NCBI GenBank assembly: GCA_021201135.1
Contig: JAJQGT010000006.1
Span: 561,548-625,547 of the forward strand
DNA length: 64,000 bases
Source of the DNA: Oscillospiraceae bacterium
GTDB lineage: Bacteria > Bacillota > Clostridia > Oscillospirales > Ruminococcaceae
Reading direction: 5' to 3'
Shown here: one piece after another, positions 46,236-53,778 of the stretch
Layout of the letters: every line of letters begins with the position of its first letter
Numbering within the stretch: the first letter of the stretch is position 1
The notes under the pieces: model-generated
Databases searched by the model: none
Seen by the model: only the letters and a program-made list of their open reading frames with translations
Told to the model about the DNA's origin: nothing
Position numbers and translations under genes: made by a program

Positions 46236-46478
46236 ATGAGACTTGACAAATATCTGAAGGTCAGCCGCCTTATAAAGCGGAGAACCGTTGCCAACGAAGC
46301 CTGCGATGCGGGAAGAATCGTGGCGAACGGCAAGCCGGCAAGGGCTTCATATGAAGTGAAGGTCGGCGACATCATCGAGATTAATCTCGGGAAAAATCCG
46401 CTCAAGGTGAGAGTTCTGTCCGTTTCGGAATACGCAACGAAGGAAACCGCCGCGGGACAGTACGAGATTATATCCTGA
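46236..46478 (+). CDS. rqcP: S4-domain RNA-binding protein RqcP (YabO/Hsp15-like)
   Basis: This 80-residue S4-domain protein matches RqcP, which works with RqcH in C-terminal alanine tailing of stalled nascent chains on the 50S subunit. The S4 fold is clear: MRLDKYLKVSRLIKRRTVANEACDAGRI-type start, then VGDIIEINLG. Length is normal. It starts at ATG 46236 after GGGAG. It lies 69 bases after hup, beyond a terminator. Confidence 0.92.
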   Translation: MRLDKYLKVSRLIKRRTVANEACDAGRIVANGKPARASYEVKVGDIIEINLGKNPLKVRVLSVSEYATKETAAGQYEIIS

Positions 46479-46496
46479 CTGAATTGAAATCATCGG

Positions 46497-46526
46497 GACC
46501 GAAGTCTTTTTTTGGGCTTCGGTCCT
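46497..46526 (+). terminator. Terminator after rqcP
   Basis: GGACCGAAG pairs with CTTCGGTCC around a T-rich loop, followed by TTGAATTTT. Confidence 0.78.
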
Positions 46527-46562
46527 TGAATTTTCTTCTGTTTTTTCTGATATTCACCGAAA

Positions 46563-46598
46563 TTTAAGGTAGATTTTAGGTTGGAATAGTATTATAAT
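46563..46598 (+). promoter_or_regulatory. Promoter of the two-component system with tandem response-regulator motif
   Basis: TTTAAGG (46563-46569) and TTTTAGG (46574-46580) are direct repeats 11 bp apart, overlapping the expected -35 region. TATAAT (46593-46598) is the -10 box. The same 18-bp arrangement occurs at 48585-48602. Spacing of one helical turn is typical of OmpR-family binding sites. Confidence 0.7.
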
Positions 46599-46626
46599 AG
46601 TAGCAATAAATAAGGGAGGACAGGAT

Positions 46627-47307
46627 ATGAGACTTCTTCTTGCGGAGGACGAAAGGGCTTTATCGAAAGCACTGGTTGCTATTCTGGAGCGAAACAACTA
46701 CTCGGTTGACGCCGTTTATGACGGGCAGGAAGCCCTTTCGTATCTCGAGGCGGACAACTATGACGGGGTGATACTCGACATAATGATGCCGAAGGTCGAC
46801 GGATTCACCGTCCTTAAAGAAATGAGGGCAAAAGGAAACCAGATTCCCGTTCTCATGCTCACAGCCCGCTCGGAGGTGAGCGACAAGGTTACGGGGCTCG
46901 ACCTCGGGGCGAACGACTACCTCACGAAGCCGTTCAATTCGCAGGAGCTTCTGGCACGAATCAGGGCGATGACAAGGACCTCGACCCAGCATCAAAGCTC
47001 GCAGATAAAATTCGGAAACGTAACTCTGGACAGAGCCACTTTTGAGCTCTCAACTCCCTCGGGAAGCTTAAGACTTGCCAACAAAGAATTTCAGATGCTC
47101 GAATTCCTTATGAGCAACCCGCACAGCATTATCCCGTCGGAGAGGTTCTTAGAGAAAATCTGGGGCTATGACAGCGAATCAGAGATAAACGTCGTCTGGG
47201 TTTATATCTCCTACCTTCGGAAGAAGCTTGACGCGCTCAAGGCAAACATCCAGATCAGGGCTGTCAGAAACGCAGGCTACTCTTTGGAGGAGATTCCCGA
47301 TGATTAA
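46627..47307 (+). CDS. OmpR-family response regulator
   Basis: This 226-residue protein has a receiver domain with the acidic pocket near residues 7-9 (AEDER), phospho-acceptor Asp51 in VILDIMMPK, and Lys in LTKPF. The winged-helix DNA-binding domain follows (about 128-222: KEFQMLEFLM, SEINVVWVYISYLRKKL). It is coupled to the sensor kinase by an 8-base overlap. The tandem motif in its own promoter and before the VTC operon is the likely target. It starts at ATG 46627 after GGGAGGA. Confidence 0.94.
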   Translation: MRLLLAEDERALSKALVAILERNNYSVDAVYDGQEALSYLEADNYDGVILDIMMPKVDGFTVLKEMRAKGNQIPVLMLTARSEVSDKVTGLDLGANDYLTKPFNSQELLARIRAMTRTSTQHQSSQIKFGNVTLDRATFELSTPSGSLRLANKEFQMLEFLMSNPHSIIPSERFLEKIWGYDSESEINVVWVYISYLRKKLDALKANIQIRAVRNAGYSLEEIPDD

Positions 47308-48559
47308 TAATCTACGCCTCAAGCTCATCGGCGCGACTATGCTTTCCCTTATCATAGTTCTTTCAATCGTTGACGGTGTTATCACATATTCCACCTATCG
47401 CGGAATTATCGACGATGCGGATGCAGTTCTGGCACTTTTGGCGGACAACGGCGGAAGCTTTCCTGAAAGGATAGATGATCTTCCGGGAGATAATCTTTTA
47501 TCGCCGGACACCAACAGACATCAGAATGACATCCTCGAATCTCCCGAGCTCGAATATGAAACGAGATACTTCACCGTCACCTTCAACAACCGCTCGGGAA
47601 ACCTCGTTTCCGTGAACACCGGCAAGATTGCCGCCGTTGACAGCTCAGCCGCCGTCGAATATGCCGAGAGCGTTCTCGAAAAGAGCTCTACAAAGGGCTT
47701 TATGGACGACTACAGATATCTCGTGAACATAGGCGAAACCGAAACGACGGTTGTGTTCCTTGACTGTGCGAGAAACCTTACGACATTCAGAACGGTTATC
47801 ACGGCGAGCCTCGGAATTTCCGTTGCGGGACTTGTGATGGTGCTTATATTGCTTATTTTCCTTTCGGGAAGAATTGTCAAGCCTTTCTGGGAAAACTATG
47901 AGAAACAGCGCAGGTTCATCACCGACGCAGGTCACGACCTCAAGACTCCCCTGACGGTTATCGGTGCGGATGCGGAAGTGCTTGAGATGGACGTCGGCGA
48001 GAACGAGTGGATAACCGACATACGAAATCAGGTTTCAAGGCTTACCGACATGACAAACAGCCTTATAACGCTGTCGAGGATGGAAGAGCCGGAGCCGCAG
48101 TATCAGATGATTGACTTCCCTCTTTCGGACATTGTCGAAGAGACTCTTGAAGAGTACCGGTCTCTGGCTAAGACACAAGGCAAGAACCTTTCCGGCTCCG
48201 TTCAGCCGATGATAAGTCTCTGCGGCGACGAAAAGGCGATAAGAAGGCTTCTTGCAGTGCTTCTTGACAACGCAATGAAGTACTCGGACGAGAACGGCAC
48301 CATAAGTCTTACTCTCGAACAGCAGAGGGGCTCAATCCGGCTGTCGGTGTTCAACACCTGCCCCTATATGCCGAAGGAAAGCCTGCCGCACCTATTTGAC
48401 AGATTCTATCGGACGGATGAAAGCCGCAACTCGCAGACAGGCGGCTATGGGCTGGGGCTTTCGATTGCCGCGGCTATCGTCACCGCCCACAAGGGAAAGA
48501 TTTCAGCCTCGACCACGGACGAGAAATCGCTCCTGATGACTGTCACATTCCCTTCATAA
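47300..48559 (+). CDS. Sensor histidine kinase
   Basis: This 419-residue kinase has helix 1 (about 5-27), an extracytoplasmic sensor region of about 125 residues without a recognised fold, and helix 2 (about 155-178). The HisKA domain follows with FITDAGHDLKTPLTVI (phospho-acceptor His), then the HATPase domain with LLDNAMKYSDENG and YGLGLSIAAAIV. No HAMP linker is obvious. ATG 47300 is chosen after TTGGAGGAG, overlapping the regulator's stop. The signal sensed is unknown. Confidence 0.93.
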   Translation: MINNLRLKLIGATMLSLIIVLSIVDGVITYSTYRGIIDDADAVLALLADNGGSFPERIDDLPGDNLLSPDTNRHQNDILESPELEYETRYFTVTFNNRSGNLVSVNTGKIAAVDSSAAVEYAESVLEKSSTKGFMDDYRYLVNIGETETTVVFLDCARNLTTFRTVITASLGISVAGLVMVLILLIFLSGRIVKPFWENYEKQRRFITDAGHDLKTPLTVIGADAEVLEMDVGENEWITDIRNQVSRLTDMTNSLITLSRMEEPEPQYQMIDFPLSDIVEETLEEYRSLAKTQGKNLSGSVQPMISLCGDEKAIRRLLAVLLDNAMKYSDENGTISLTLEQQRGSIRLSVFNTCPYMPKESLPHLFDRFYRTDESRNSQTGGYGLGLSIAAAIVTAHKGKISASTTDEKSLLMTVTFPS

Positions 48560-48584
48560 AACTTTAGCTTTATTTTCACTTTTA

Positions 48585-48617
48585 TTTAAGGCAGACTTAA
48601 GGAATGTAAAGTATACT
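48585..48617 (+). promoter_or_regulatory. Promoter of the VTC operon with tandem response-regulator motif
   Basis: TTTAAGG (48585-48591) and CTTAAGG (48596-48602) are direct repeats 11 bp apart. The 18-bp motif matches the one before the response regulator at 15 of 18 positions. TATACT (48612-48617) is the likely -10 box, with the motif covering the -35 position. This suggests activation by the adjacent two-component system. Confidence 0.68.
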
Positions 48618-48623
48618 TTAGAT

Positions 48624-48703
48624 AATCCCTGAGGTACATCCGCCATTCGTACCCTTTCTGAACTCCTTTCGGAATCCAAATAGCGGATGTGCCCGGGGAT
48701 CCC
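48624..48703 (+). promoter_or_regulatory. Structured leader of the VTC operon
   Basis: ACATCCGC (48636-48643) pairs perfectly with GCGGATGT (48683-48690) around a 39-nt loop, and flanking CCC and GGG bases may extend it. GGGGATCCCC at 48694-48703 is a further palindrome. It lies in the transcribed region 50 bases before the first gene. No known RNA class was recognised. Confidence 0.45.
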
Positions 48704-48756
48704 CCCATTTATGATTTGAATTTCGCAAATACCCTGAAATCTTAAGGAGGACCACA

Positions 48757-49515
48757 ATGGACTATCAAGCCACGTTCAAGCGCTATGAAGTCAAGTATAT
48801 GCTGACACGCGCCCAGAAGTACGCGATAAAAGAGACCATGCGACCCTATATGGAGCTCGACAAGTACGGAAGAACGACAATCAGAAACATATACTTTGAT
48901 ACCGAAAACTACCGCCTCATAAGGCACTCGCTCGAAAGCCCTACTTACAAAGAAAAATTAAGACTTAGGAGCTATAAGAAGGTCGGTCCCGAGGACCCTG
49001 CTTTCGTTGAGCTCAAGAAGAAATACAAATCGGTCGTCTATAAAAGAAGGCTCGAACTTCCCGCAGGCGAAGCGACACTCTGTTTACTGCATGGCATTCC
49101 CCTTCCCGTTCACTCACAGATTGCGAACGAGATTGAATATTTCAGAAACTACTATGGCGACTTAAGACCGGCGATGTTTATCTCTTACGAAAGAGAAGCA
49201 TACTATTCGGACGACGGCTCGGATTTCAGAGTCACGTTTGACGAAAACATTCTCTGCCGTCAGGATGATTTCTCTCTGGAAAGCGACGCCTATGGGCTCT
49301 CACTGCTGGAAGACGGCATGACACTTATGGAAATTAAGACCTCGGGCGGATATCCCCTTTGGATGAGCCACGAGCTCAACAGACTTGGAATCTTCAAAAC
49401 CTCATTTTCGAAATACGGCACGGCTTATCGCAGGATGTTCGAGGAGCACAGCCTGAGCCACACGACACCCGTCAACACAATACAAGTAACAACCGGAGGA
49501 CGTCTTTATGCTTGA
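48757..49515 (+). CDS. VTC-domain protein, putative polyphosphate polymerase
   Basis: This 252-residue protein matches the VTC domain of the triphosphate tunnel fold, whose yeast member Vtc4 makes polyphosphate from ATP. Basic and acidic tunnel residues are seen in FKRYEVKYMLT, EKLRLRSY, VELKKKYKSVVYKRRL, FISYEREAY and LMEIKTSGGYP. No membrane helix is present; the next gene supplies one. The stop overlaps the DUF4956 start by eight bases. Whether it makes polyphosphate or another anionic polymer is not shown. It starts at ATG 48757 after AAGGAGG. Confidence 0.85.
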   Translation: MDYQATFKRYEVKYMLTRAQKYAIKETMRPYMELDKYGRTTIRNIYFDTENYRLIRHSLESPTYKEKLRLRSYKKVGPEDPAFVELKKKYKSVVYKRRLELPAGEATLCLLHGIPLPVHSQIANEIEYFRNYYGDLRPAMFISYEREAYYSDDGSDFRVTFDENILCRQDDFSLESDAYGLSLLEDGMTLMEIKTSGGYPLWMSHELNRLGIFKTSFSKYGTAYRRMFEEHSLSHTTPVNTIQVTTGGRLYA

Positions 49516-50077
49516 CAATCTTTTCAAAGGAATTTTCGACTCGGACACCACTTCAACCATCGCTGTTTCCGACTTCTTGACTTGCGTGGTTTCCGCACTT
49601 TTAATAGGACTGATTCTGGCGTTATGCTATATGTATAAGACCAGATATACAAAGAGCTTTGTCGCGACAATCGCACTTTTGCCGGCGGTTGTATGCGTTG
49701 TTATAATGATGGTAAACGGCAATATCGGCACTGCGGTTGCGGTTGCGGGAGCTTTCAGCCTCGTCAGATTCCGTTCTGCCGCAGGAACAGCAAAGGAAAT
49801 ACTGGCAATCTTTCTCGCGATGGGCACCGGACTTGTCGTCGGAATGGGCTATATAGGCTTCGGATTCCTGTGTGCCGTTCTCTTCGGAGCGGTAAGCATG
49901 CTCTATTCGACTCTTGACTTCGGCGTGAAGAAGAGAGCCCAGAAATACAAGACGCTTCACATCACCATCCCCGAGGACCTCGACTATACGGGAGTTTTCG
50001 ACGACCTCATGAAGGAGTACACCTCCGAGCATGAGCTCACCCACGTCAAGACCACCAACATGGGAAGCCTTTATTGA
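49508..50077 (+). CDS. DUF4956-family membrane protein, interrupted by an in-frame TGA
   Basis: The 189-residue product has about four membrane helices (FLTCVVSALLIGLILAL, FVATIALLPAVVCVVIMM, KEILAIFLAMGTGLVVGMGYIG, and one more), then a cytoplasmic domain. DUF4956 proteins are usually next to VTC-domain genes, as here. The frame stops at TGA 50075-50077 after KTTNMGSLY, but continues open in the same frame for 41 more codons to TGA 50201, coding LTYDIVLRDPSKEKEFIDQL and the rest of a domain expected for the family. So the gene carries a nonsense codon or is read through. It overlaps the VTC gene. Confidence 0.82.
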   Translation: MLDNLFKGIFDSDTTSTIAVSDFLTCVVSALLIGLILALCYMYKTRYTKSFVATIALLPAVVCVVIMMVNGNIGTAVAVAGAFSLVRFRSAAGTAKEILAIFLAMGTGLVVGMGYIGFGFLCAVLFGAVSMLYSTLDFGVKKRAQKYKTLHITIPEDLDYTGVFDDLMKEYTSEHELTHVKTTNMGSLY

Positions 50078-50203
50078 CTTACTTATGACATTGTCTTAAG
50101 AGACCCCTCAAAGGAAAAAGAATTTATCGACCAGCTCCGTTGCCGCAACGGCAACCTTGAGATTTCCATTTCGAAGCAGGAAACTCAGGTTGCGGAGCTT
50201 TGA
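50078..50203 (+). pseudogene. C-terminal remnant of the DUF4956 gene beyond the in-frame TGA
   Basis: This continues the reading frame of the preceding gene after a single TGA. It codes 41 residues with normal codon use (LTYDIVLRDPSKEKEF, CRNGNLEISIS) and ends at TGA 50201-50203. No start codon or ribosome binding site precedes it, so it can only be made by readthrough or in a strain without the TGA. Confidence 0.7.
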
Positions 50204-50238
50204 TACGCAGTTTGTAACCGCGTAAGGAGAGCAGAAAT

Positions 50239-52551
50239 ATGAATCACAGGATAAAGAGAATTTTGTCGCTTATAAGTTTAGCGGCTTTGTTTACTGCATG
50301 TCTTTCGGGGTGCTCATCGAGCGCTTCAAGCACCGACAACCCCATCGTGACTATCGACTCGAGCGAGATGTTCGTGGAAGCAGAATTATCGAGTACCGGC
50401 ACAAGTGAAATGTTCACCGACAGAGACTATGAAATTGGCTATGATGAGGATTCAAGCATTGCTATTACCCTTTCGGGCTCTTCAGCAGAATGCTCGTCGT
50501 CCTTGGTTACGATTTCGGGAAGCACCGTTACAATCACCGATGAAGGAACCTATATAGTATCGGGAACCCTCGACGACGGGATGATTATTGTCGACGCCGA
50601 CAGCAAGGACGATGTTCAGATTGTTCTGAACGGCGTTTCAATTACGAGCAAGACCTCTGCGGCTATATACGTTCTGAACGCCGACAAGGTTTATATCACG
50701 ACCGCTTCGGGAACCACGAACACCCTCGCGAACGGCGGAAGCTACGTCGCCATCGACGAGAACAACATTGATGCGGTCATCTACTCAAAAGACGACTTAA
50801 CCCTGAACGGCTCGGGCACACTTACGATAACCGCGAGTGCAGGGCACGGCATAGTTTCAAAAGATGATTTGGTCATCACAAGCGGAACCTACAATATTAC
50901 AGCCGCAAATCACGGTCTGAGCGGCAAGGACTGCGTCAATATTGCGGGCGGAACGTTCACAATATCATCCGGCAAGGACGGAATTCATTCGGAAAATACG
51001 GACGATACAAGCCTCGGATATATCTATATCACCGGCGGCACCTTCGATATCACTGCTTCCGACGACGGAATAAGCGCGTCGAATAATATCACCATAAACG
51101 ACGGCGATTTCACGATTGATTCTGTCGACGAAGGCATCAAAGCGGATGTGGCTTTGGTTATCACAGATGCCACAATCGGGATAACCTCTGACAGCCACGG
51201 TCTCTCTGCGGGAGAAAGCGTGAGAATCGCCAAGGGCAATTACACCATCACGGCTACCAAAGACGGAATCCACGCCGAGGATTCGGACGATACCACAATC
51301 GGGTTCGTCTACATCTCGGGCGGCAACTTCACGATAAACGCCGACGGCGACGGAATCAGTGCAGCGACATATCTCCAGATTGAAGACGGCGATTTCGACA
51401 TCACCACAGCCGACGGTGCGGGAGAGGTTTCGACTTCTTACACCTCGGGCGGAGCCTTCAGTTGGGACGGTTGGAGTTCGGGTTCAAGCTCGGATGACTC
51501 GTCGAGCACCAAGGGCTTGAAGGGCGGCTCGTCGGTCACTGTTTCGGGCGGAACCTTCAATATAAATTCCGAGGACGACGGAGTCCACTCAAACGGCAAC
51601 GTTACCATCTCCGGCGGCACGTTTGACATTGCGACCGGCGACGACGGAATGCACGCTGATGAAGAGCTGAACATTTCGGGCGGCACAATCAACATCTCAC
51701 AGAGCTATGAAGGTCTCGAGGGCGAGACGGTCGTCATCTCGGGCGGAAATATAGACCTCGTTTCGAGCGACGACGGCATCAATGCCGCAGGCGGAGGCGA
51801 TTCGAGCGGCTTCGGAGGATTCGGAGGCTTCGGCGGAGACTCGTTCTCCTCGGGCAGTTCAAGCTCATCCATCACAATTTCCGGCGGCGTCATCTATGTC
51901 AAGGCGAGCGGCGACGGAATCGACTCAAACGGAACATTCCTTATGTCCGGCGGTGAGCTCTATGTCTCAGGTCCTACGACGAGCGCCGATGCACCAGTTG
52001 ACTGGGAGAGCTCAGGAACCATTACCGGCGGAACGCTCATAGCGGTCGGTGCTTCGGGAATGCAGGAGAACTTCGGCTCGAATTCGACCCAGGGCTCGAT
52101 GCTTCTCTCGGCAAGCGGCTCCTCGGGCGACACCATTACTCTTAAAGATTCAAGCGGCAACGTGCTTGTCTCATATACATGCAGTTCTTCTTACTCCTGC
52201 ATACTCATCAGCTGTCCTTCCCTCTCTACCGGCTCAACCTATACAGTCACCTACGGCAGTTCGTCCACCGAAGTTACCCTCTCAAGCCTTATCTACAGTG
52301 AAGCCGCAGGCATGGGCGGAATGACCGGCGGCAATATAGGTGGTGGCAAAGGCGATAGTGGCAATAGCTTTGATAGCGGCATGACTGCTCCGGATTCAGG
52401 TACCACTCCTGACAGTGGGTCCACTCCTGACAGCGGTTCGACTCCTGACAGAGATATGGGCGGCAACATGGGCGACATGGGTGGCTTCGACGGCGGAGGC
52501 GGTCGAGGCGGCGACATGGGTGGCAACACAAACGGCGCCACTCAAACTTAA
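50239..52551 (+). CDS. Large beta-helix lipoprotein, Cthe_2159-like carbohydrate-binding family
   Basis: This 770-residue protein has a lipoprotein signal peptide with lipobox LSGC (Cys25). Residues 110-620 are a regular series of beta-helix turns, such as NISGGTINISQSYEGL and TISGGTFDIATGDDGM, with repeated DDGI/DDGM motifs that could bind calcium or acidic polymers. It resembles the Cthe_2159-type domain reported to bind cellulose or pectin-like polymers. The C-terminus is a Gly/Met/Asp-rich tail with PDSGSTPDSGSTP repeats, suggesting a disordered wall-spanning region. It follows the VTC and DUF4956 genes, a recurrent neighbourhood, and starts at ATG 50239 after AAGGAGAG. Confidence 0.8.
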   Translation: MNHRIKRILSLISLAALFTACLSGCSSSASSTDNPIVTIDSSEMFVEAELSSTGTSEMFTDRDYEIGYDEDSSIAITLSGSSAECSSSLVTISGSTVTITDEGTYIVSGTLDDGMIIVDADSKDDVQIVLNGVSITSKTSAAIYVLNADKVYITTASGTTNTLANGGSYVAIDENNIDAVIYSKDDLTLNGSGTLTITASAGHGIVSKDDLVITSGTYNITAANHGLSGKDCVNIAGGTFTISSGKDGIHSENTDDTSLGYIYITGGTFDITASDDGISASNNITINDGDFTIDSVDEGIKADVALVITDATIGITSDSHGLSAGESVRIAKGNYTITATKDGIHAEDSDDTTIGFVYISGGNFTINADGDGISAATYLQIEDGDFDITTADGAGEVSTSYTSGGAFSWDGWSSGSSSDDSSSTKGLKGGSSVTVSGGTFNINSEDDGVHSNGNVTISGGTFDIATGDDGMHADEELNISGGTINISQSYEGLEGETVVISGGNIDLVSSDDGINAAGGGDSSGFGGFGGFGGDSFSSGSSSSSITISGGVIYVKASGDGIDSNGTFLMSGGELYVSGPTTSADAPVDWESSGTITGGTLIAVGASGMQENFGSNSTQGSMLLSASGSSGDTITLKDSSGNVLVSYTCSSSYSCILISCPSLSTGSTYTVTYGSSSTEVTLSSLIYSEAAGMGGMTGGNIGGGKGDSGNSFDSGMTAPDSGTTPDSGSTPDSGSTPDRDMGGNMGDMGGFDGGGGRGGDMGGNTNGATQT

Positions 52552-52557
52552 TCACGG

Positions 52558-52644
52558 GTAAAACCCGCCCGGATGAACGTCTTCTACATTTTCACCAGCG
52601 TTTTTTCACCCTCACTTCCTGTTAGTTCATCCGGACGGTTTTAC
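52558..52644 (+). repeat. 20-bp inverted repeat after the lipoprotein gene
   Basis: GTAAAACCCGCCCGGATGAAC (52558-52578) and its near-complement GTTCATCCGGACGGTTTTAC (52625-52644) flank a 46-nt T/C-rich loop containing TTTTTT. It may end the operon; the length and loop are larger than a usual terminator. Confidence 0.6.
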
Positions 52645-52690
52645 TATACTTCAACAAGAAATTAACTCTCCTCCATATTCAGATACCTCA

Positions 52691-52733
52691 AAAAAGCCCG
52701 GGCAAGGAAATAATCCTTGTCCGGGCTTTTATT
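52691..52733 (-). terminator. Strong bidirectional terminator
   Basis: AAAAGCCCGG-CAAGGA pairs with TCCTTG-CCGGGCTTTT around an AATAA loop (one bulge), with A and T runs on both sides. It separates the lipoprotein operon from the convergent kdgA-kdgK operon. Confidence 0.87.
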
Positions 52734-52752
52734 TGCACTTGTATTATCTATC

Positions 52753-53778
52753 TTATCTCTGTACGCGACCCGAAGCGTTACCGCCTGCGAGGGATTCAAC
52801 CTCAGCTACCGAGCAGAGGTTGAAGTCGTGCTCGATGGAGTGCTTGAGGCAGGAAGCCGCAACAGCAAAGTCGATTGCCTTATGGGGCTCATAGCCGTTC
52901 ATGAGTGAGTAGATGAGTCCGCCGCCGAAGCTGTCGCCACCGCCGACACGGTCAACGATGTGCATGTGGTACTGCTTCGAGAAGTAGGCGTTGTCGCCGG
53001 TGTAGAGCATACCCGCCCAGTCGTTGTCGTTGGCGGAGATTGAGGAGCGAAGGGTGATTGCAACGTGACTGCAACCGAATCTTTCGTGGAGCTGACGAGC
53101 TACGCTGATATAGCCCTCGTGGTTGAGCTTGCCGGAGTCGATGTCGGTATTCTCAGCTTCGATTCCGAAGACGTCCTTGGCGTCCTCCTCGTTCGAGATG
53201 CAGACGTCGACGTAAGGAACAATCTTACTCATGCACTCACGAGCCTGCTCCCTTGTCCAGAGCTTCTTTCTGTAATTCAGGTCACAGCTGACTGTTACGC
53301 CCTTGGCGTGTGCCGCCTTGACTGCGTCGAGGCAGATTTCGGGGAGCTCACCGCCGAGGGCCGGAGTGATGCCGGTGAAGTGGAACCACTTGGCGCCTTC
53401 AAAAATCTTGTCCCAGTCAAACTCTTCCCTCTTGGCAAGAGAAATCGCACTGTAGGCTCTGTCATAGATGACCTTGGAAGGTCTCTGAGATGCGCCCTTC
53501 TCGGCAAAGTAGATTCCGACTCTGTCGCCGCCCCTGATAATATCCGAAGTGTCAACGCCGTAGCGACGAAGTTCATTGACTGCCGCCTGACCTATTTCGT
53601 GCTTGGGGAGCTTGGTGACGAACGAAGCATCCACACCATAATTGGCAAGAGATACCGCAACGTTTGCCTCTCCGCCGCCGAAGGTTGCTTCGTAAGTGTT
53701 AGCCTGCAAAAATCTTAAATATCCTTCGGGGTTGAGCCTGAGCATAATTTCGCCGAAGGTTACCGCTTTATTTCCCAT
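52753..53778 (-). CDS. kdgK: 2-keto-3-deoxygluconate kinase (PfkB family)
   Basis: KdgK phosphorylates 2-keto-3-deoxygluconate to KDPG. This 341-residue PfkB-fold sugar kinase has an N-terminal GGGEANVAVSLANYG motif, a substrate-binding centre, and the C-terminal DRVGGGDSFGGG with the catalytic Asp. The neighbouring KDPG aldolase and uxuAB make the assignment firm in context; a general sugar kinase would share the motifs. It starts at ATG 53778 after AGGAGG, 17 bases after kdgA. Confidence 0.9.
   Translation of the reverse strand: MGNKAVTFGEIMLRLNPEGYLRFLQANTYEATFGGGEANVAVSLANYGVDASFVTKLPKHEIGQAAVNELRRYGVDTSDIIRGGDRVGIYFAEKGASQRPSKVIYDRAYSAISLAKREEFDWDKIFEGAKWFHFTGITPALGGELPEICLDAVKAAHAKGVTVSCDLNYRKKLWTREQARECMSKIVPYVDVCISNEEDAKDVFGIEAENTDIDSGKLNHEGYISVARQLHERFGCSHVAITLRSSISANDNDWAGMLYTGDNAYFSKQYHMHIVDRVGGGDSFGGGLIYSLMNGYEPHKAIDFAVAASCLKHSIEHDFNLCSVAEVESLAGGNASGRVQR

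Follow-up and report, generated by a model that had tools for sequence, protein, structure and literature searches.

In CiaRH of Streptococcus, and likewise in the CiaR-like BAS0540-BAS0541, an OmpR-family response regulator goes together with the direct repeat TTTAAG-N5-TTTAAG, which lies 10 bp before the -10 element and is also present in the regulator's own promoter (PMC3091779, PMC4938410; these and all other papers are cited here from portions of their text). VTC proteins are known from two other settings. In the yeast VTC complex (Vtc4/Vtc1), the VTC catalytic domain stands beside a membrane protein (PMC10657179), and the accessory genes of Gram-positive Pel loci comprise a polymerase-DUF4956 pair with an exported third partner (PMC7112168, PMC12345266). 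We analyzed a stretch of 64,000 nucleotides (hereafter the window) from an Oscillospiraceae bacterium (assembly GCA_021201135.1, contig JAJQGT010000006.1, positions 561,548 to 625,547), in which a two-component system is followed by an operon for a VTC protein, a DUF4956 membrane protein and a beta-helix lipoprotein of the Cthe_2159 type. The locus is probably an autoregulated CiaRH-type two-component regulon, with the VTC operon and an unlinked lipoprotein gene as predicted targets and, less certainly, an anionic surface polymer as the output; the regulon itself is strongly supported in silico. The features of the locus and of the unlinked target are as follows.

46563..46580, + strand: CiaR-type box 5' of the response-regulator gene, TTTAAG-N5-TTTTAG plus a G (motif comparison)
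46590..46595, + strand: -10 element TATTAT, 10 bp 3' of the box (by reading; PMC3091779 used this spacing to search for CiaR promoters)
46627..47307, + strand: OmpR-family response regulator of type A, recognition helix VVWVYISYLRKKL (Pfam and NCBIfam)
47300..48559, + strand: sensor histidine kinase, its gene overlapping the regulator gene (Pfam HisKA and HATPase_c)
48585..48602, + strand: CiaR-type box 5' of the VTC operon (motif comparison)
48612..48617, + strand: -10 element TATACT, 10 bp 3' of the box (by reading)
48622..48707, + strand: structured leader RNA of the VTC mRNA (folding, covariation)
48757..49515, + strand: VTC-domain (triphosphate tunnel) protein, 252 aa (Pfam VTC, E 3e-38)
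49508..50077, + strand: DUF4956 membrane protein, MgtC-like, with an early stop (Pfam; relatives)
50239..52551, + strand: Cthe_2159-type beta-helix lipoprotein, 770 aa (Pfam, E 1.5e-129; lipobox by eye)
L215 2981-5002 (own genome, C9), - strand: Gly/Asp-rich lipoprotein, 673 aa, whose promoter holds the third genome-wide box

Pfam gave Response_reg and Trans_reg_C for the regulator, HisKA and HATPase_c for the kinase, and VTC, DUF4956 and Cthe_2159 for the three operon products, in agreement with the gene identities of a preliminary description, which had been made from the DNA letters alone and had proposed that the two-component system controls the VTC unit through a shared tandem motif. The description of the motif was also accurate: the 18-mers at 46563-46580 and 48585-48602 (+ strand) are identical at 15 of 18 positions, their half-sites have an 11-bp period, and in both promoters the box covers the -35 region, the -10 element beginning 10 bp after the 17-bp core. 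The joint pattern formulated in that description has two exact matches in the 64 kb and none in 100 shuffles; read as a TTTAAG-N5-TTTAAG direct repeat, each window site carries one mismatch in 12. When the full promoter pattern (18 fixed positions) was searched in the 2,333,572-base genome with at most two mismatches, exactly three sites were found, two in the promoters of the response-regulator and VTC genes and the third at C9:405041 (minus strand), and sequence simulated from the window contained none (150 x 64 kb for each of two Markov orders). The rarity belongs to the full box plus -10 element and not to the 18-mer, because the 18-mer with two mismatches showed no enrichment (16 genome matches vs 31 for a reversed control). 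At up to three mismatches the full promoter had eight sites vs seven in the reversed control, and the five additional sites at exactly three mismatches are within the control level. A wider regulon in the own genome, drawn from the 18-mer alone, was rejected, its 16 matches being below the control, and C9:275827, a third 18-mer match with one mismatch, was dropped as it is absent among the full-promoter matches at three mismatches.

The third box (C9:405041) ends 39 bp 5' of the start of the gene for the Gly/Asp-rich secreted lipoprotein of 673 aa. Neither Pfam nor NCBIfam assigned this protein to a family above cut-off, and it had no relative in the PDB; by eye, its sequence looks like that of a beta-helix protein. 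The VTC protein (at least 92% identity) and the lipoprotein (at least 86% identity) were found in exactly the same seven of 25 same-genus genomes, the own genome included, and in all seven the lipoprotein gene is preceded by the box (2-3 mismatches of 18). From box to ATG, 39 bp were measured in the four of these genomes where the start was placed directly by script; in the other three, the script placed two starts inside the gene and found none in one.

To place the box in a wider context, VTC loci of relatives were compared. The set comprised 80 VTC loci from a species-genome scan and 60 regions from a class search, in which a VTC relative at E<=1e-25 was found in 110 of 391 genomes and regions were taken for 60 of the 110. 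Loci with a matched VTC start and enough upstream DNA were considered usable (136 of 140), and 113 non-redundant loci were left after dropping those with at least 85% VTC identity. Of these 113 loci, 109 have DUF4956, 84 have Cthe_2159 and 52 have a response regulator within the region; 46 have all four genes, and all these counts are minima since contig ends shorten some regions. The regulator was divergent upstream in 24 loci, upstream on the same strand in 21 and downstream in seven. The VTC operon together with a two-component system is a recurrent unit in Clostridia.

The motif was scored in the 300 bp upstream of the orthologous VTC genes. At least 14 of 18 positions matched in 57 of the 113 loci vs 1.42 expected, and at the stricter score of at least 15 of 18 there were 35 vs 0.14 expected. 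The motif was consequently not absent from orthologous promoters, a finding that the preliminary description had named as refuting its proposal, though many of them carry no strong box. Where a good repeat was accompanied by a good -10 element, the spacing was N10 in 26 non-redundant loci, N9 in six, and any other tested spacing in four, and many of the sites read TTTAAGGTTCA in tandem. The response-regulator promoters of type-A loci (defined below) reached 14 of 18 or more in 17 of 38 vs 0.48 expected. On the reverse strand of the VTC upstream regions, 12 of the 113 loci scored at least 14 of 18, compared with 57 on the forward strand; the reverse-strand matches are attributed in part to divergent response-regulator promoters.

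Three further observations were made on these loci. A Thermoplasmata archaeon bin (L075) has DUF4956, VTC and Cthe_2159 together, with no box and no matching two-component system in the stretch examined. The response-regulator frame in the assembly of a close relative (L024 4871-5188) ends after 105 aa, despite a recorded similarity to the full regulator. The own genome holds a second, distant VTC/DUF4956 pair (L002 and L216 4514-5971, C26), whose VTC protein is 23% identical; this pair adjoins a flippase-like gene and has no full-promoter match within three mismatches.

The relation between regulator and box was examined by dividing the linked regulators into two types. Type A comprises regulators with at least 55% identity to that of the window and the usual helix VVWVYISYLRKKL; type B is a different subfamily, with the helix NVEVYMSFTRKKL or NVEVYMSFARKKL where it was read. 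The TTTAAG repeat (at least 10 of 12) was present in 38 of 51 VTC promoters of type-A loci and in none of the VTC promoters of four type-B loci. These four carried a TTCAAT repeat instead, in all four VTC promoters and all four regulator promoters, with a spacing to the -10 element of 10 bp in the former and 9 bp in the latter; in the regulator promoters, the repeat and the -10 element had no mismatch. When only the better repeat at each locus was counted, type A had 37 TTTAAG vs 2 TTCAAT and type B none vs 4 (Fisher 1.2e-4), a value to be read with the limited independence of the four type-B loci, which are interrelated.

Three additional genomes (G427, G417 and G412) each have a type-B regulator (69-72% identity). 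In G427, a TTCAAT box stands 5' of Cthe_2159, which there precedes VTC and DUF4956, and another 5' of a lipoprotein homologue on a different contig. G417, in which no VTC was found at E<=1e-30, has the TTCAAT box 5' of the lipoprotein homologue, 9 bp from the -10 element, and G412, which belongs to the window's own genus, has it 5' of VTC. The regulators' own promoters matched the TTCAAT repeat at 11 of 12 (G427), 12 of 12 (G417) and 10 of 12 positions (G412, a tie with TTTAAG). That these targets recur under a different regulator, with the box altered to match, is the strongest evidence that the regulator would act on these promoters. As a separate observation, G427 has another type-B box after DUF4956 (L260, 7888 onward), 5' of a gene for a secreted protein that by eye is PepSY-like.

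Two other explanations of the shared box were considered. That it is a chance resemblance between AT-rich promoters would fit the unenriched 18-mer and the eight sites vs seven in the control at three mismatches, but it leaves the full pattern at two mismatches, the conservation across genera, with 35 of 113 VTC promoters at 15 of 18 or better, and the exchange of box along with regulator unexplained, and we regard chance as practically excluded. A more substantial proposal is that the box is a generic CiaR-type site through which any CiaR-like regulator controls the VTC operon, the linked two-component system being one of several readers. We compared 36 of the 42 class genomes without a linked two-component system, leaving out six with middling scores (13-14). 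A regulator matching that of the window at E<=1e-60 (46-48% identity) was present in nine of 11 genomes with a box vs three of 25 without, and in seven of the nine this regulator carries the CiaR-like helix HVEVYVSFLRKKL. For this comparison the Fisher test gave 1e-4, which exaggerates the contrast, as five of the 11 box genomes are of one genus. In the own genome, however, a search with a type-B query returned the window's own regulator as the sole response regulator at E<=1e-45, the box covaries with the subfamily of the linked regulator, and the regulator's own promoter has the box. In our judgement, the generic site is an unlikely explanation, and direct control by the linked two-component system is preferred.

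The chemistry of the VTC protein was approached through its conserved residues. Profile comparison identified the window protein as a genuine relative of yeast Vtc4 (E 1.5e-13), and the ten solved relatives found were all VTC subunits. Pfam gave only VTC at E<=0.001, and an SPX domain was not among its matches. Residues invariant in 42 VTC proteins include R9, E11, K13, K67, R69, R71, E85, K87, K89, K96, R146, E192, K194 and K219. Where the alignment with Vtc4 is significant, eight of these (R9, K13, R69, R71, E85, K87, K96 and R146) are paired with identical residues; for E192, K194 and K219 such pairing is confined to a second stretch that lacks significance, and at K67 and K89 Vtc4 has residues other than Lys. 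With some reserve, we lean towards a polymerase-like chemistry.

The second operon product is a DUF4956 protein, which is MgtC-like over its membrane and C-terminal parts. In an hhalign comparison of DUF4956 with 22 MgtC proteins, alignment A2 by itself reached 91.5% (141 columns); with three further DUF4956 proteins (L163-L165), which had themselves been found with the MgtC model, the value was 96% (200 columns). Unrelated and reversed controls gave 0.2-0.6%. The Pfam MgtC model (cut-off 31.4 bits) did not match the copy of a close relative (L019) and gave 16-23 bits with three other DUF4956 proteins. The C-terminal part was modelled as a ferredoxin/ACT-like fold. A Foldseek search with the model listed nothing below E 0.001, and VIA-align covered residues 140-229 only, a common ferredoxin-like fold, with the membrane part barely included. 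A streptococcal protein of a similar locus has earlier been described as MgtC plus ACT (PMC12345266). The window copy is interrupted: an in-frame TGA at 50075-50077 ends it 42 residues early compared with relatives of 231 aa, and beyond it the frame continues through a further 41 codons before a stop at 50201-50203. The truncated protein is without the conserved NGN-containing C-terminal tail, and all ten closest relatives (L019-L028) have an unbroken protein of 231 aa. The TGA may be genuine, may be peculiar to the strain or may reflect an error of assembly.

The third product belongs to the Cthe_2159 family (PF14262, three stretches) and matches the solved structure 4peu at E 3e-42. For the founding Cthe_2159 protein, binding to cellulose and to polygalacturonic acid has been reported (PMC6712302). 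The window protein has a computed charge of about -81 over residues 26-770 and, because the beta-helix protein itself is so acidic, a polyanion such as polyphosphate would probably be held only with cations.

The function of the operon admits other readings than a phosphate polymer. According to one, the VTC protein is a triphosphate-type hydrolase like AtTTM3 and ygiF rather than a polymerase. According to PMC4641920, the hydrolase AtTTM3 has Glu in place of four basic residues of Vtc4, and E11 of the window protein occupies the place of one Glu of the acidic patch described there for hydrolases; the patch positions were located by pattern from the ExExK start only, not by residue alignment. 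The same pattern places basic residues at the other positions (R9, R98 and K194), and the solved relatives, all VTC subunits, likewise speak against a hydrolase, which we consider improbable. In the portions of the literature covered, no enzyme assay of a bacterial VTC was found.

The other reading is an adhesion or exopolysaccharide module whose beta-helix lipoproteins would bind polysaccharide, with VTC/DUF4956 adjusting how a glycan is made or attached and not producing polyphosphate. The ligands reported for the founding Cthe_2159 protein favour it, as does the position of the own genome's second VTC/DUF4956 pair beside an apparent flippase gene. Accessory genes for a polyphosphate polymerase, DUF4956 and CotH adjoin Gram-positive Pel loci (PMC7112168). 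In Streptococcus intermedius, deletion of the MgtC+ACT gene (which we infer to be the DUF4956 one) or of the CotH gene altered the Pel level and aggregation, and the excerpts of that paper describe no such Pel effect for the polymerase gene (PMC12345266). A surface-glycan role therefore stays a serious rival. No pel or CotH gene was present among the nine neighbourhood proteins scanned, and the invariant core residues of VTC argue for chemistry and not only regulation; we hold the glycan module to be quite possible, if somewhat short of an even chance. CotH occurred once among ten proteins scanned in loci without Cthe_2159, too few to define a replaced slot. The preliminary description had joined the regulon to an anionic polymer, possibly polyphosphate, made or exported and held at the cell surface. 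Its regulon half has been borne out by the box, the neighbourhood, the third target and the co-variation of regulator and box, whereas its polymer half is compatible with the sequences only, and polyphosphate synthesis or export by the operon may be suggested at that level.

Several findings weigh against a polymer-producing regulon controlled by the linked regulator. Among the 84 non-redundant loci with Cthe_2159, 39 have no box of at least 14 of 18, and 13 of the 51 type-A regulator loci are without a repeat of at least 10 of 12. Conversely, a good VTC box was seen in 11 class genomes that have neither a linked two-component system nor a regulator close to type A, and two genomes (G325 and G014), which belong to the three box-less genomes with a matching regulator in the comparison above, combine a type-A regulator with the absence of a box at the VTC gene that was examined. 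More than one regulator subfamily can probably read the box, which would then not be private to the window regulator. The seven genomes in which VTC and the unlinked lipoprotein co-occur may be one clade, so that they count as supporting and not as independent evidence. As to the products, the VTC protein has in E11 a Glu of the hydrolase type, and the DUF4956 protein of this copy is truncated.

The VTC mRNA has a further conserved element. There are 139 nt between the -10 element and the VTC start, within which 48622-48707 folds into a long stem with an invariant apical hairpin (48656-48674), whose loop CUCCU (48663-48667) is complementary to the Shine-Dalgarno sequence at 48744-48750. The shuffle z-score of the folding was -3.2 for the window and -3.1 to -4.1 in six relatives. 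In 11 related sequences, nine of 21 pairs had changed on both sides and yet were kept, a result matched by none of 500 shuffles; further pair types, one of five covariation measures, were reached by 29 of 500. The structure of the leader in the window's genus is supported by this covariation. A covariance model found one copy each in 11 of 60 relatives' genomes, all of the window's genus; these hold exactly the training sequences of the model, so that the search shows a single copy and no new members. In the seven genomes where the place of VTC is known, the leader is directly 5' of it. Rfam had no match in 46400-52800. In more distant genera the box is often only 38-60 bp from the VTC ATG, and the leader model had no match in 20 tested distant loci with such a short distance. 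The leader is likely to provide a second, translational control on VTC.

For the kinase, the AlphaFold2 model of a 424-aa relative (in L019) has one mixed alpha/beta domain between two long helices, which are taken as membrane-spanning. The matches listed by Foldseek for this model were signalling kinases, mostly catalytic cores, and were uninformative on the signal. Elsewhere in the window, the protein encoded at 43235-44005 matches Pfam TMEM164 (E 8e-18), a family named after a eukaryotic membrane protein.

Taken together, the following model may be proposed. The kinase would sense an envelope signal and phosphorylate the OmpR-family regulator, which would bind the tandem TTTAAG box, located where a -35 region would otherwise be, and activate three promoters: its own, that of the VTC-DUF4956-Cthe_2159 operon, and that of the unlinked Gly/Asp-rich lipoprotein gene. 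Binding, activation and the signal are all inferred steps. To judge from families and kept residues, the operon would most likely provide a cytoplasmic VTC-type phosphate-polymer enzyme working with an MgtC/ACT-like membrane partner, and at the cell surface the exported acidic beta-helix lipoproteins would form, or attach to, an anionic layer bridged by cations. In the window's genus, the structured leader would add a second control at the level of VTC translation. In S. mutans, calcium represses the ciaXRH operon (PMC8317062), which by analogy may serve as a lead for the signal.

A much broader view, which we offer tentatively and think rather doubtful, would be that VTC with its MgtC/ACT-like subunit is a widespread bacterial synthase/translocase for polyphosphate or another polyphosphoanhydride; that it places a cation-bridged polyanion on acidic beta-helix lipoproteins at the cell surface; that envelope sensing of the CiaR type turns it on and, in the window's genus, a leader RNA able to mask the VTC start gates it a second time; and that, in Clostridia, regulator and boxes have been exchanged jointly at several of the target promoters.

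Bacterial VTC and DUF4956 proteins are common, and the predictions now connect them with a defined sensor, with a defined DNA box and with a third target that is unlinked. The sensor and box offer a handle, as the inducing signal can be searched for with a reporter and the product assayed in induced cells, and the role of these unexplained genes becomes testable. Regulator and box have also changed in step at unchanged targets, a natural case of regulon rewiring.

The locus may be set against its closest known systems, of which CiaRH is one. The recognition helix of the window regulator is identical to the CiaR helix VVEVYVSKVRKKL at nine of 13 positions, a likeness at the level of the helix. 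The predicted targets differ, being the VTC operon and surface lipoproteins; no such CiaR target was found in the portions of PMC8317062, PMC3091779 and PMC4938410 covered. From the Pel accessory genes the locus differs in that its third partner is Cthe_2159, a two-component system is linked, and neither pel nor CotH was among the nine proteins scanned. Compared with the yeast VTC complex, the window enzyme has VTC as its only Pfam family and the membrane protein has DUF4956 as its only one, though it is MgtC-like; as to the MgtC/SapB family, the Pfam MgtC model is below cut-off or silent on DUF4956 proteins. The beta-helix domain is common to Cthe_2159 (4peu) and the window protein, but the latter has 770 aa, an N-terminal lipobox and, by eye, a Gly/Asp-rich tail. 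No link of a two-component system to VTC-DUF4956 was found in the literature covered, which did not extend to subscription papers and preprints. What is new here, as predicted from the sequences, is a CiaR-type regulon of known layout with new predicted targets.

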